NCBI RefSeq assembly: GCF_000022065.1
Contig: NC_011898.1
Location: forward strand, 1,634,001 to 1,698,000
Reading direction: 5' to 3'
DNA from: Ruminiclostridium cellulolyticum H10
GTDB taxonomy: Bacteria; Bacillota; Clostridia; Acetivibrionales; DSM-1351
DNA: 64,000 bases
Below are positions 40,323 through 47,103 of the stretch, piece by piece. The translations under genes and the position numbers were made by a program. The notes under the pieces were generated by a model that was given only the letters and a program-made list of their open reading frames with translations, ran no database searches and had not been told where the DNA came from. Position 1 is the stretch's first letter. Each line of letters opens with the position of its first letter.

Positions 40323-42107
40323 ATGCATAAAAAAATAGCAGGTAAGCTACTTAAAACAGTATTCGCAGTTTTTATTGCAGGAAGCATGGTTTTAGGCTCA
40401 GCAACTGTTCAGGCGGCTGGGGTAAGTGATTTGAGCAAAAGTTCAGTGTATGCCAGTGAAGCTATTCAATGGATGGCAAACAATAGTATCATAAGCGGAG
40501 ATAACCAGGGAAACTTCAATCCAAGGCAGAGTATAACAAGGGCTGAACTTATAACACTATTGGTAAAGGCATTGGATATTGATACTGAAAACCTGCCTTC
40601 AACAGCTACTTTTTCGGATGTACCTGTAAGCCATTGGGCCTTCAAATATGTTGAAGCTGCCAACAGGGCGGGTATAACCAGCGGTACAGGAAGCGGTAAG
40701 TTCGGCATTAACAGCCTGACTACACGAGAACAGGTTACAACAATGCTTTTAAACTATCTTTGTGTATCAAAGGAAGCTATTGTTGCAGAGCAGGGTTTGG
40801 ATGACCTTTTAAAATTCAAAGATGCCGGAAAAATGTCTGATTGGGCAAAGGCATCAATCAAGTTTGCTGTCTCCAATAATATTATGAGCGGAGTAAGTGC
40901 TGATTCATTTTCTCCGTCGGGAAAAGCGACAAAAGAACAGATAGCTGTTATATTATACAAGTTTGTAAATTCCAAGGAGAGTATTGAGCAAAATGCGGCA
41001 GCACTAAAAAAAGTTATTGTTACGTACAATGATGACTTAATTAAACTTCAAACACCTTGCAAGGTTATTGAAAATGACATAATGATTCCGGCTGAGGTTT
41101 TTTCAAAAACAGGGGCAAAGGTTGATTTTGATAGTCAGGCAGGCATAATAGCCATTAAAAGCTCGACTGCTCAGGATAAAAATATCTATATGAGCATAGA
41201 TAATAAATCAGCTTATGTAAACTACACTGGTAGCGGCAACCCAATTTCAGACCCACCTGCTCAGGATAAACTGGTTACCCTAAATAATGCACCTGAACAA
41301 ATAAGTGGTGTAGTTCTTGTCCCTGCAAAGGCAGTAGTCGATGCTCTTGGAATTACAATGGACTGGAACGATAAAATCAATGTGTTGAAAATTAAGGATA
41401 GTACTATTCCTAAGAATCCACAGCTGTACAATGCTATGAAGAGTATGTTGGATTACAAGGGTGAATATAGTTCCGACTTAATAATAAATATGAAAGAAGA
41501 TACCTTGGATATGAATTTTGGAATGCATATGTCCATAAATGGAGCAATAAACGGGAATAATTCAACATCAAACGCCAAATTTACACTGACACTTGACGGG
41601 GAACAGGAAGATTTAATGGATTATCAAACCATAAATATCGGAGACAATATATATGTAAAAAATCCAGAGACAGATTTATGGGATACATACAATAGAAGTG
41701 AGGCGGAAGAAGAAGGTATTCTGTATACTGATTTTGAGTCTGATAGAAATGAAATGCTGAGATTATTGGATGTTTATGGGAAAATGAACATATCTAATGA
41801 GGGAAAAACTATACTCAATGGAGAGGAAGTCTCAAAGTATCAGGTGAGGCTGAACATTGAATTACTGCAGGGATTACTATCAGCAGATATGCTGGAATAT
41901 GGCTTAGGACTTAAAGATATCTACAATAATGGCCTTGACACAAGAATGTTTATATATGTCAATTCAAAAGGGCAGCTGGTAAAGCAGTCGGTTATAATAG
42001 CAGGTGCAACGGAATTTGATGGTTCAACAACGGATATTGATATGACAGTTAGTAGCATGTATACTAATATCGGAAAAGAAATAGAGATTGTAAGTCCTAT
42101 AAAATAA
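40323..42107 (+). CDS. SLH-domain surface protein with copper-amine-oxidase-like domain
   Basis: A 594-residue exported protein. Signal peptide with VQAAG cleavage region (about 31); three S-layer-homology motifs (about 40-90, 98-150 and 160-220; ITRAELITLLVKAL, TREQVTTMLLNYL, ATKEQIAVILYKF) that bind pyruvylated wall polymer; a copper-amine-oxidase-like wall domain (about 232-360); then a C-terminal domain (about 370-594) with alternating strands and repeated NMKEDTLDMNF, YIYVNSKGQLV patterns, resembling the LolA/LppX-like DUF6612 fold. ATG with GAGGTGAC upstream. Its terminator was split by the IS element 37 bp downstream. Confidence 0.85.
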   Translation: MHKKIAGKLLKTVFAVFIAGSMVLGSATVQAAGVSDLSKSSVYASEAIQWMANNSIISGDNQGNFNPRQSITRAELITLLVKALDIDTENLPSTATFSDVPVSHWAFKYVEAANRAGITSGTGSGKFGINSLTTREQVTTMLLNYLCVSKEAIVAEQGLDDLLKFKDAGKMSDWAKASIKFAVSNNIMSGVSADSFSPSGKATKEQIAVILYKFVNSKESIEQNAAALKKVIVTYNDDLIKLQTPCKVIENDIMIPAEVFSKTGAKVDFDSQAGIIAIKSSTAQDKNIYMSIDNKSAYVNYTGSGNPISDPPAQDKLVTLNNAPEQISGVVLVPAKAVVDALGITMDWNDKINVLKIKDSTIPKNPQLYNAMKSMLDYKGEYSSDLIINMKEDTLDMNFGMHMSINGAINGNNSTSNAKFTLTLDGEQEDLMDYQTINIGDNIYVKNPETDLWDTYNRSEAEEEGILYTDFESDRNEMLRLLDVYGKMNISNEGKTILNGEEVSKYQVRLNIELLQGLLSADMLEYGLGLKDIYNNGLDTRMFIYVNSKGQLVKQSVIIAGATEFDGSTTDIDMTVSSMYTNIGKEIEIVSPIK

Positions 42108-42117
42108 ACTTTTATAT

Positions 42118-42134
42118 AAAAAAGCAGAAGTCTG
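42118..42134 (+). terminator. Left arm of a terminator split by the IS
   Basis: AAAAAAGCAGAAGTCTG here pairs with CAGACTCTGCTTTTTT at 43692-43707, on the far side of the element, with one extra A in the left arm. Rejoined, they form a bidirectional terminator for the SLH gene and the convergent gene at 43729. Confidence 0.8.
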
Positions 42135-42198
42135 CGAAAAATTTGTACCGACCCCCAAAAGTTAGACCATAATCTAACGATTGGAGGTCGGTATTTTT

Positions 42199-42777
42199 AT
42201 GGCTAAATATTCTTTTGAATTTAAGAAACAAATTGTAAAAGCCTATCTAAATGGAGAAGGAGGATACGAGTATCTTGCAAAGCAGTATGATATCCCCTCG
42301 TTTAACAACATTAAGAAATGGGTCCTTAATTATAATGCTTTTGGCGACGAAGGTTTGGTGCGTTCTCGCAAACAAAAAAAATACTCTTTCGAATATAAAC
42401 TTCATGTTGTAGAATTATATTTAACAAGTGAGGTTTCATATCAAGAGTTAGCTATTCAAGAAGGAATTCGTAATCCTGCACTGATTGTTAAGTGGGTGAA
42501 CGATTTTCGGATTGCTGGTCCGGATGCTTTGAGACCTAAGAAGAAAGGTCGGAAGAAACCATTGAGCCTAAAAAGAAAAGTAACAGATACCAATGCAACT
42601 GAATCAATTATTGTTGATACTAGTGCTGAATATGTTAAACAGCTTGAAGATGAACTTTTAAAGTTACGTATAGAGAATGCCTATTTAAAAGAACTGAGGA
42701 GGCTGCGTTTAGAGGAGGAAACTCTTCTGAAAAAGCAGCGAGAATCGTCTACAGCCTCCGAGGAGATTTCAAACTAA
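42199..42777 (+). CDS. IS3-family transposase OrfA (helix-turn-helix)
   Basis: 192 residues from ATG 42199, with GGAGG 11 bases upstream; a TTG in frame at 42181 lies before that site. Two helix-turn-helix units are visible (SFEFKKQIVKAYLNG ... NIKKWVLNY and SFEYKLHVVELYL ... LIVKWVNDF), then a basic stretch and a leucine-rich coiled coil (about 150-185) used for dimerisation. It binds the IS ends. The stop at 42777 lies inside the upstream-open orfB frame. Confidence 0.93.
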   Translation: MAKYSFEFKKQIVKAYLNGEGGYEYLAKQYDIPSFNNIKKWVLNYNAFGDEGLVRSRKQKKYSFEYKLHVVELYLTSEVSYQELAIQEGIRNPALIVKWVNDFRIAGPDALRPKKKGRKKPLSLKRKVTDTNATESIIVDTSAEYVKQLEDELLKLRIENAYLKELRRLRLEEETLLKKQRESSTASEEISN

Positions 42778-42818
42778 AAGACATTCTCGCAGTAGTAGGC
42801 TTTCCTAAAGCAACATAT

Positions 42819-43619
42819 ATGTATTGGCAGAAAAGATTTGATAGAGAGAATCCAGACAAAGAACTGGAAGATAAGATATTGGAGATTCATGAGAATAATA
42901 AGAATTATGGATATCGTCGTATGTATGGTGAACTCAGGAATCAAGAATTTATAGTAAACAAGAAGAAAGTACAGCGAATTATGCAAAAGCTTAGTCTTCA
43001 AGTTACTTCTTTTACCAGAAAAAGTCGCAAGTACAGTTCTTATAAGGGAAAAGTTGGAACAGTTGCACCTAACAGAATCCGTAGACGTTTCAATACTCAT
43101 ATTCCACACCAGAAGATTACAACTGATACAACAGAGTTTAAATACTACGAAGTTGATTCCAAGGGACATATGACAATGCATAAGCTTTACCTGGATCCTT
43201 TTATGGATATGTACAATAGTGAAATAGTAAGTTTCGGTATTGATAAACATCCATCTGCAGTAAATATTATGAGTGCACTTAATAAAGCTATTGAAATCAC
43301 ATCTGATTGTCCTTATAGAAGAACATTCCATTCAGATCAAGGTTGGGCTTATCAGATGAAAGTATACTCACATCGTCTCAAAGAAGAACGGATTTTTCAA
43401 AGTATGTCTAGAAAAGGTAACTGCCATGATAATTCAGTAATGGAAAACTTCTTTGGTCTGCTAAAACAAGAGATATACTATGGAGTTGTGTACTACAGCT
43501 ACGAGGACTTAAAAAATGCAATAGAACGATACATAAAGTATTATAACGAGCAAAGAATTAAAGAGAAACTAGGATGGCTGAGTCCTGCTCAATACAGACT
43601 TAGGCTCTTGGCTGCATAA
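42819..43619 (+). CDS. IS3-family transposase OrfB (DDE integrase core)
   Basis: 266 residues from the first ATG; the frame is open upstream past the orfA stop to about 42720, and a CTG-AAA-AAG stretch at 42727-42735 could allow -1 frameshifting to make the OrfAB fusion transposase. HTH_21 segment (NNKNYGYRRMYGEL) followed by the rve core with D in TDTTEF, D in HSDQG and E in MENFFG. All catalytic residues are present. Confidence 0.92.
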   Translation: MYWQKRFDRENPDKELEDKILEIHENNKNYGYRRMYGELRNQEFIVNKKKVQRIMQKLSLQVTSFTRKSRKYSSYKGKVGTVAPNRIRRRFNTHIPHQKITTDTTEFKYYEVDSKGHMTMHKLYLDPFMDMYNSEIVSFGIDKHPSAVNIMSALNKAIEITSDCPYRRTFHSDQGWAYQMKVYSHRLKEERIFQSMSRKGNCHDNSVMENFFGLLKQEIYYGVVYYSYEDLKNAIERYIKYYNEQRIKEKLGWLSPAQYRLRLLAA

Positions 43620-43623
43620 AAAA

Positions 43624-43653
43624 TGCGTAACAAATATCAAAATCTGTTACGCA
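43624..43653 (+). terminator. Hairpin after the transposase gene
   Basis: TGCGTAACA / TGTTACGCA inside the IS, four bases after the orfB stop; no T run. Confidence 0.55.
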
Positions 43654-43691
43654 ATAAAGTCTAACTTTTTGGGGTCACATCAATTTTATGT

Positions 43692-43707
43692 CAGACTCTG
43701 CTTTTTT
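43692..43707 (-). terminator. Right arm of the terminator split by the IS
   Basis: CAGACTCTGCTTTTTT complements the left arm at 42118-42134. On the plus strand the T run is here; on the minus strand it is at the left arm. Confidence 0.8.
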
Positions 43708-44142: not shown

Positions 44143-44394
44143 TTGTTGGATTCCAGAAAATGTTTGGAGATTTATGAGTTTTGTCAAAACCAATACAAAA
44201 AACTTGAGAAAAAGACCGGATTTTATAGTCCTAAGCATGATAAGGTTGTCATGGAACTTGCTGCAAAAGAGTTTCAGATGAGTGAGGCCATTATAAATAA
44301 TGCATTTGATTTAGCTGCACAAACTTTGAGTAAGAACAGTAAGAGTAAATCTGAAAAAATAATTCGAAACAAGCTTATTCATGGAACCTTTTAA
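44143..44394 (+). CDS. Small hypothetical helical protein
   Basis: 83 residues from TTG 44143, with AAGGGAG 9 bases upstream. Helical and basic; KCLEIYEFCQNQYKKLEKKTG, VVMELAAKEFQMSEAIINNAFDLAAQ. The C-terminus is Lys/Ser-rich. Family not recognised; possibly DNA or RNA binding from its charge, which is only an inference. Confidence 0.5.
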   Translation: MLDSRKCLEIYEFCQNQYKKLEKKTGFYSPKHDKVVMELAAKEFQMSEAIINNAFDLAAQTLSKNSKSKSEKIIRNKLIHGTF

Positions 44395-44610
44395 TCAATA
44401 GGTGAAATATATAAAAATTAAAGCATAGGCATTAAAAAGTCTGTGCTTTTTTCATATATGAAAAAACCTAATATGGAGTAAAATGGTATCTATTACAAAA
44501 TAATTTGATTATTACAATATTCTAGTCAATTATTGAGAATAATTGGTTTGTAGGATATAATTATCTATGATTAATACTTTAATGTACAATCAATGTTTGG
44601 GGGTGTATTA

Positions 44611-45368: not shown

Positions 45369-46796
45369 ATGGTAGATTCAGTCTATTTTGTGCCGGCAGT
45401 AATTATAGTTGTACTATTTATATTAATTCTCAGCTTTGTTTCAATGTACAAGAAGGTACCACAGGACAAAGCATTGGTTGTAACAGGATTCAGAGGAAGA
45501 AGAGTTATAACCGGCGGCGGCGGGATAGTTATACCGATGCTTGAAAGAACAGATATCATTTCACTGGAAAACATGCAGATAGATATTAGAATTGACGGTG
45601 CATTGACTTCACAGGGAGTTGGTATAGTAGCAGATGGCGTTGCGGTTGTAAAGGTTAAATCCGATAAGGAATCAATCCTTTCGGCTGCCGAGCAATTTAA
45701 TACTTCCAAGGGCCTTGACTACATGTTGGGAATAATAGCTAGAACGACTCAACAGGTTTTGGAAGGTAAGCTTCGTGAAATAGTTTCAAGAATGACTGTT
45801 GAAGAAATTTACAAAGACAGGGAAACCTTTGCGTCACACGTTCAGGGCGTTGCTGCAACAGAATTGCAGAACATGGGTCTCGAATTAAAGGTTCTTACAA
45901 TCAAAGATATTTCAGATAAAAACGGTTATTTGGAAGCCCTTGGAAAACCTAGAATTGCAGAGGTAAAGAGAGATGCTCAAATAGCAGAAGCAAACGCTAC
46001 AAAGGAAACAAAGGTTAAAACCGCAGAGGCAAACAGAGAGGGTGAAGAGGCGAGAATCCAGGCCGAAACCCAGATAGCCGAAGCAAACAAGGACAAGGAA
46101 CTGAAGGTTCAGTCCTATAACAAGGATCAACAGACAGCAAAGGCTGAAGCTGACCTTGCATACGATATTAAAGCCAATATTGTTAAAAAGGAAGTAGCTG
46201 AAACTGCAATGCAGGTAGAAATTGTTAAGAAACAGAAGGAAATTGAACTTGCAGAGCAGGAAGCAATAAGAAGAGAAAAAGAACTTGAAGCGACTGTAAA
46301 GAAACAGGCGGATGCTGAAAACTACCAAGCTACAAAGGTAGCAGATGCCAACAAGTACAGAGAGGTTGCAGCTGCTGAGGCTAGGTCACGTGCCATAGAG
46401 ATGGAAGGTGAAGCTAAGGCTAAGGCTAAGAGGGCGGAAGGTATGGCCGAAGTTGAAATAATCAAGGCAAAAGGTGAAGCGGAAGCTTTGGCGATGGCTA
46501 AAAAAGCTGAAGCCTTCAAAATGTACAATGATGCTGCTGTTACACAGATGATTGTAGAGAAGCTGCCTGAAATAGCAAATGCAGTAGCCAGTCCGCTTTC
46601 AAAGACAGAGAAGATTGTTATAGTGGACAACGGCGGAGAAGGAAAAGGAGCTTCAAAGGTAACTGGATATGTAACAGATATAATATCTCAATTACCTGAA
46701 ACTGTAGAAGCACTTACAGGTTTGAACGTACTGGATTTCCTTAAAAAGAATACAGTTCAGACCCAAAATGAAAATGACGCAGAAGATGTAGAGTAG
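45369..46796 (+). CDS. Flotillin family protein (YqiK/FloT-like)
   Basis: 475 residues. N-terminal membrane helix (about 7-28), SPFH/PHB domain (about 30-195; YKKVPQDKALVVTGFRGRRVITGGGGIVIP), then a long coiled coil with EAEA/AEAN-type repeats (about 205-400) and a C-terminal conserved tail (IVEKLPEIANAVASPLSKTEKIVIVDNGG). Scaffold of membrane microdomains. Co-transcribed with the NfeD-like gene, its usual membrane partner. It ends 33 bp before an IS-derived hairpin that may serve as terminator. Confidence 0.93.
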   Translation: MVDSVYFVPAVIIVVLFILILSFVSMYKKVPQDKALVVTGFRGRRVITGGGGIVIPMLERTDIISLENMQIDIRIDGALTSQGVGIVADGVAVVKVKSDKESILSAAEQFNTSKGLDYMLGIIARTTQQVLEGKLREIVSRMTVEEIYKDRETFASHVQGVAATELQNMGLELKVLTIKDISDKNGYLEALGKPRIAEVKRDAQIAEANATKETKVKTAEANREGEEARIQAETQIAEANKDKELKVQSYNKDQQTAKAEADLAYDIKANIVKKEVAETAMQVEIVKKQKEIELAEQEAIRREKELEATVKKQADAENYQATKVADANKYREVAAAEARSRAIEMEGEAKAKAKRAEGMAEVEIIKAKGEAEALAMAKKAEAFKMYNDAAVTQMIVEKLPEIANAVASPLSKTEKIVIVDNGGEGKGASKVTGYVTDIISQLPETVEALTGLNVLDFLKKNTVQTQNENDAEDVE

Positions 46797-46829
46797 AATT
46801 TAACACAAACAGCCCCTGCGTTAAATCTG

Positions 46830-46888
46830 TGAACCGACCCCCAAAAGTTAGACTAAGAATCTAACGATTGGAGGTCGGTTTTTTATAA
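46830..46888 (+). mobile_element. Solo left-end copy of the IS3-family element (MITE-like remnant)
   Basis: 59 bp matching the left end of the IS at 42144-42202: TGAACCGACCCC, AAAAGTTAGAC and CTAACGATTGGAGGTCGGT are shared, with a few substitutions around 46854-46860. No right end or transposase is present. It folds as ACCGACC...GGTCGGT with an inner GTTAGA/TCTAAC stem and is followed by six T residues, so it is also shaped like a terminator for the flotillin gene. The rest of the 46797-47103 gap is AT-rich and shows nothing else. Confidence 0.85.
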
Positions 46889-47103
46889 ATAAATTTGATT
46901 GCCTTTTGTTGACATGCCTTACATTATTATATAAAATATACAAATCTTATATTGTGAAAATTGACATAATAATTAAATATAATATTCCAATATTCAGCAA
47001 ATAAGAGAAAATATTATATTTACAATAGTTTAAATTGACATAAATTGTATACGGGTTTACAATTTATATGTTTCCATAAAATATAAATTGTGAGGTATAA
47101 TGT

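Follow-up and report, generated by a model that had tools for sequence, protein, structure and literature searches.

A solo IS end behind the flotillin gene of Ruminiclostridium cellulolyticum H10 is probably the stub of an IS150-like element that landed in a terminator loop

The solo insertion sequence (IS) end at 46830, behind the flotillin gene of R. cellulolyticum H10, is very probably a stub left by an IS150-like IS3-family element, or by a 52-54 bp miniature of one, in the loop of the flotillin terminator and trimmed by a deletion. The likely common cause, overlooked in the initial annotation, is the preference of such ISs for the loops of terminators as insertion sites, a tendency shared by related elements in many Firmicutes, the phylum of the host. 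The window, that is the whole stretch of DNA analysed, comprises 64,000 nucleotides of the host genome, a single contig of 4,068,724 bases. Features are listed in Table 1.

Table 1. Features of the IS, the flotillin locus and the other solo-like places (window positions unless stated otherwise).
Feature	Positions	Strand	Remarks
Terminator of the SLH-domain gene (40323-42107), interrupted by the full IS: left arm	42118-42136	+	
Target duplication ATT (3 bp), left copy	42141-42143	+	right copy 43683-43685
Full-length IS (IS3 family, IS150-like), 1539 bp	42144-43682	+	
Left-end hairpin of the full IS	42146-42193	+	3' arm with GGAGG (42183-42187) before the orfA ATG (42199)
orfA	42199-42777	+	HTH_28, HTH_Tnp_1
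orfB, listed from the first ATG	42819-43619	+	rve integrase core
Terminator interrupted by the full IS: right arm and T run	43692-43707	+	
Flotillin-like gene	45369-46796	+	Band_7/SPFH above cut-off; Pfam Flot 27.2 against 27; match to the NCBIfam FloT model below cut-off
Ancestral flotillin terminator, putative remaining left arm, CAGCCCCTGCG	46810-46820	+	alignment with four two-armed relatives
Solo IS left end: TG terminus, then hairpin (IS-end arm and inner GTTAGA/TCTAAC stem)	46830-46880	+	
T run (6 T) at the foot of the solo hairpin	46879-46884	+	
Other solo-like places (genome positions)	264032; 1078862; 2919963; 3948546		L061; L062; L063; L064 (right-end type)

The solo starts with the TG at 46830-46831 and is 85-88% identical to the left end of the full IS. 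Its 17-base core, GACCCCNAAAAGTTAGA, is found in the window with zero mismatches at 42150 (+), at 43660 (-, the right end of the IS) and at 46836 (+). With up to three mismatches there are eight window matches against a shuffle mean of 0.61; two of these are the second arms of the hairpins themselves (42173 and 46860, minus strand, 3 mismatches) and three lie distant from the solo (3951, 37385 and 38288). The 59-bp match originally proposed holds for the IS left end over about 46830-46880, while its final bases match mainly through the T run. As the DNA after the hairpin is host-like and not IS-like (see below), the IS-derived part is about 46830-46880. The inner stem and the T run described at the solo are both present, and the right end said to be missing is indeed missing: the only one in the window belongs to the full IS, and no decayed right end was detected nearby with up to three mismatches, except the hairpin's own second arm. 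The outer stem is longer than the inner one, and the fold of 46801-46900 has an energy of -27.7 kcal/mol. The solo thus has the form of an intrinsic terminator, a hairpin followed by a T run. It was absent from the output of a simple terminator scan of the window, probably because its stem is interrupted. Rfam gave zero matches (E up to 1) at the solo or the IS; elsewhere in the window, a terminator-like hairpin at 44365-44458 has two weak Rfam matches (SpF39 sRNA and L20 leader) far below the gathering scores.

The flotillin gene is present in all ten other genomes of the genus. Behind it, the four closest (G004-G007) carry a two-armed terminator with a T run (arm CAGCCC.. or CAGTCCC.., loop, ..GGGCTG), which aligns with the arm left in the window; in the remaining six this region is too divergent for comparison. 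The order in the window is left arm, IS-end hairpin, host-like DNA, and the right arm is absent. Counted from the T run of G004's own terminator, the DNA downstream of the stub matches that genome with a z of 4.9 against shuffles, compared with -0.06, 0.78 and 1.15 for G005, G006 and G007 and 0.5 for the interior of the local IS. Derivation of the T run from the IS interior is therefore not supported, and the match to G004 points to a hairpin joined to host DNA with the right arm gone. Since this match has its main anchor about 40 bases further along, the position of the deletion is uncertain. A left arm on its own, followed by an IS-end hairpin and host-like DNA, argues for an insertion into the terminator loop and then a deletion. 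An IS150-like IS3-family element, or a 52-54 bp miniature, would first have entered the loop of the intrinsic flotillin terminator. A deletion would then have taken the rest of the element plus the right arm, leaving the left-end hairpin fused to host DNA at the T run or close to it. After this decay the stub hairpin may have been retained as the new terminator, and flotillin transcripts are now probably terminated by it, judging from the sequence. This comparison with the relatives supports two of the first proposals made for this site: a deletion scar, and an IS end co-opted as the flotillin terminator, the latter as a prediction about termination.

The full IS carries two ORFs. OrfB has the integrase core of the IS3 family, scoring 237.9 bits with the IS3 family transposase model NF033516 (cut-off 160) and 58.0 with PF00665 (cut-off 32.6). 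The IS150-group name is a working label based on pairwise identity over orfB (41.5% to IS150; 42.3% to ISKpn8). IS1447, with 11 copies reported in C. cellulolyticum H10, was considered, but has 5'-TA ends and is probably another element (PMC6211511). A genome-wide search with the solo and the end core found ten full copies and four solo-like places besides that of the window; seven weaker matches with two mismatches were left out of this set. The ten copies are identical across all 1539 bp and therefore probably young. Three of them (L068, L069 and L070, at C1:1918780, 1926093 and 1933406) have identical flanks and follow one another at intervals of 7313 bases, suggestive of a tandem triplication of a segment with the IS in it; they were counted once, reducing the ten copies to eight independent sites. 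The TG..CA ends and 3-bp duplication typical of the IS3 family were found directly in eight of the ten copies, and these eight sit in terminator hairpins as they stand. Joining the flanks of the copies rebuilds hairpins with A and T runs, except for L067 (C1:1481039) and L072 (C1:2796906) as they stand. For these two, exchanging the flanks gives the duplications GGA and TCG and two terminators, pointing to recombination between inverted copies with an implied inversion of ~1.3 Mb. With the exchanged flanks restored, all ten copies (eight independent sites) are in terminator hairpins.

All five solo places of the genome are on the 3' side of a gene, in answer to the initial question of whether solo copies always follow genes. 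Two of the five lie within 5 kb of a full copy (46830 with 42144, and L062 at 2363 with 5364), by chance or through local movement; our data are compatible with both. L062 is a second stub: G004, G006 and G007 have a two-armed terminator there, of which only the arm beside the IS end is kept in this genome, and G005 is rearranged at this position. L061 and L063 each consist of 52 bp (TGTACC..GGTACA), with TG..CA as their two ends and no transposase. The terminators that hold them are intact in relatives, and the target duplications are TAA and TGT. L061 and L063 are thus MITEs in structure, and we infer that they moved as minis. The L063 terminator carries the mini here and a full IS at another base in G006 (loci L092 and L212), and was therefore hit twice. 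In locus L061 (~1960-1990), the left arm overlaps the 3' end of the CDS in relatives, and the duplicated TAA includes the stop codon of the gene here. Across the class, a pattern of left-end hairpin plus closing GGTWCA matched in 30 of 391 genomes, possibly with full elements among the matches; one of them (G065) is apparently unrelated. From these matches nine complete minis, with TG..CA as their ends, were read: the two of this genome and seven of 54 bp in seven other genera, for which no right end was found within 1700 bases. As a guess, minis could originate through conversion of the hairpin's inner arm into a second end.

These minis bear on the origin of the stub, since the initial annotation had also suggested a MITE-like derivative. 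It is possible, if doubtful, that the solo is a mobile MITE, a 52-54 bp palindromic mini moved by the IS transposase that has lost its far end. L061 and L063 are such elements in terminators, with 3-bp duplications, the seven 54-bp copies show that they occur in other genera, and five of the nine minis are in terminator-like hairpins. The palindromic minis therefore stand as a possible parent, but the window copy itself has only the left terminus, with no second TG..CA end and no target duplication. The right arm of the host terminator is gone, although simple insertion of a mini would leave it, and a 3-bp duplication is seen in only two of the nine minis (L061 and L063). We therefore prefer the deletion-trimmed stub, for which a full element or a mini could be the source.

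For the target choice of related elements in other genomes, GTDB species genomes were scanned with an orfB alignment, giving at least 563 related stretches, of which the best 80 were kept. Ends could be set for 55 of these 80 loci; the other 25, with an end missing or unrecognised, were left out. Together with the eight own sites and one of G006, this gave 64 sites. The first measure tried was the number of base pairs across the insertion point, counted loosely: 50 of 55 sites had at least 8 pairs, but so did 24 to 36 of 54-55 points at each offset. As this separated poorly, it was replaced by a stricter rule, under which a point is called terminator-like if it is enclosed by a stem of at least 8 pairs with a T or A run next to it. 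By this rule 44 of the 64 insertion points (69%; relatives being the best 80 of at least 563 stretches) were called, compared with 117 of 2024 control points at distances of 60-240 bases (p 2e-39) and, within 300 bases of the sites, with 1657 of 10675 points in intergenic DNA, terminators included (15.5%; p 2e-21); these p values are only rough because the points are not independent. Among intergenic points more than 25 bases from a site, 569 of 8234 were called. The insertion point lies between the arms in 38 of the 44 called sites. Twenty of the 64 sites were not called, two of them recombined own copies. When only sites with a duplication are taken, with the own pair restored (n=44), 34 were called and ten missed, and in 21 of the 34 the cut is at most 3 bases from the dyad centre.

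The base composition at the cut of these 44 sites has no clear consensus: the relative entropy reaches at most 0.11 bits (7 bases left) and 0.20 bits (7 bases right), with ~0.05 bits expected from the sample size. Further out, the left flank is rich in A and the right flank in T; this direction was read from the listed sites. Grouped by orfB identity to the window element, 17/26 sites (>=80%), 6/10 (70-80%), 9/11 (60-70%), 4/4 (55-60%) and 1/4 (<55%) were called, and by eye, an element of G005 with 48% identity has two copies located between the arms of terminators. Judged by the own copies, the left end seemed to face the upstream gene. Over the 64 sites, transcription would read into the left end only at 16, the right end only at 14, both at 27 and neither at 7, so there is no hint of coupling to transcription. 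Among eight plasmid relatives, an ISEnfa3 copy (L280) and an IS1223 copy (L286) are in terminator-like hairpins and L281, L282 and L287 are in or beside a palindrome, in each case by fold and eye; L284 has no hairpin at its site, L285 lacks a reliable right end and the ends of L283 are uncertain. The IS150-type copies L282 and L287 are on enterobacterial plasmids, where the palindrome is a short way upstream of annotated hok-type genes.

An association with terminators could in principle reflect survivorship, with random insertion and persistence at harmless gene ends, and 57 of the 64 sites indeed have at least one gene with its 3' end towards them (nearest ORF of at least 80 aa). We regard this as improbable, given that nearby intergenic points are called far less often than the sites, that the cut clusters at the dyad centre, and that the ten own copies, being identical, are probably young. 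Moreover, the habit is absent from two further multi-copy ISs of this genome, with zero of five and one of nine sites called terminator-like. These controls exclude L255, L256 and L261 (ends not found) and a third multi-copy transposase group (26 matches), and the ends of the second control IS are approximate, as its ends as set show no duplication. The transposase is predicted to recognise hairpin or dyad DNA, not a sequence. Finally, it is highly improbable that the stub is an ordinary host terminator resembling an IS end by chance or through capture by an IS: it does have a hairpin and T run like host terminators, but four relatives carry an unrelated terminator at the same place, the exact 17-base core is far above chance and IS copies of many species carry the same end, and a chance hairpin at 46830 is ruled out by the first two of these observations.

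Loop targeting in the IS3 family is known for REP palindromes. ISPsy8, IS1397 and ISKpn1 belong to the IS3 family like the window IS, and ISPsy8 also inserts at the symmetry axis of a probable hairpin and makes a 3-base repeat (PMC1525189). The targets of these elements share the REP sequence, whereas the window IS and its relatives are found in unrelated terminators. IS1272 and TnSha1 (IS1182 family) likewise use stem-loops irrespective of sequence, and three of seven TnSha1 targets are predicted terminator hairpins (PMC5678879, PMC4923244). There, however, IS1272 replaces the stem-loop and makes no duplication, while the window IS keeps both arms and duplicates 3 bp. Class C (group IIC) introns also use Rho-independent terminators as landing sites, but insert downstream of the stem-loop (PMC3522654), unlike the window IS, a DDE transposon in the loop. 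IS150 and ISKpn8 are distant enterobacterial relatives; their plasmid copies L281, L282 and L287 are associated with palindromes, and no terminator target was seen for them. ISMmy2 is an IS150-group element with 3-bp repeats, and the searched parts of its description contain nothing on terminators (PMC3053259). In a literature search in which subscription journals were thinly covered, IS3-family targeting of general terminators was not found, and as a target these look new.

On balance, a large branch of the IS3 family may well be structure-guided, with a transposase that finds hairpin or dyad DNA regardless of its sequence and an element that brings its own hairpin. Intrinsic terminators would then be a genome-wide safe landing site, split terminators would be replaced and new ones left after decay, and the REP targeting of IS1397, ISKpn1 and ISPsy8 would be one special case. 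Target choice by DDE transposons is mostly unexplained. It becomes testable, in harmless laboratory species, with a loop-landing group whose copies are identical and probably young and whose empty sites can be traced in relatives. Genomes could also acquire substitute terminators in this way, apparently twice in the present one.

All 43 distinct left ends fold into a hairpin. For the covariation analysis, 40 of these were aligned with the window IS (n=41); L147, L164 and L165, whose ends were set a few bases inward, were left out of this alignment (A2). In the 41 sequences 84.4% of cells are paired and both-side changes are found in 10 of 21 pairs, a covariation that was reached in zero of 500 shuffles and was lowered by sliding the partners. 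RNAalifold, unaided, recovered 10 of the 21 pairs (-5.4 kcal/mol, covariation term -0.2). In most rows the 3' arm includes GGAGG or GGGGG shortly before the orfA start, and the hairpin covers the likely ribosome-binding site of the transposase. IS10 and IS50 silence translation of the transposase from read-through transcripts by such a hairpin, and by analogy the left-end hairpin may do the same here. The element would thus seek dyad symmetry at gene ends, where no gene is broken; its conserved left-end hairpin would supply a terminator-like hairpin in place of the one split, and would mask the likely ribosome-binding site in read-through transcripts. In a sister species (L073; G002, C1:492957), a terminator-like hairpin starts with TGAACTGACCCCCATAAGTTAGA and may be another co-opted IS end.
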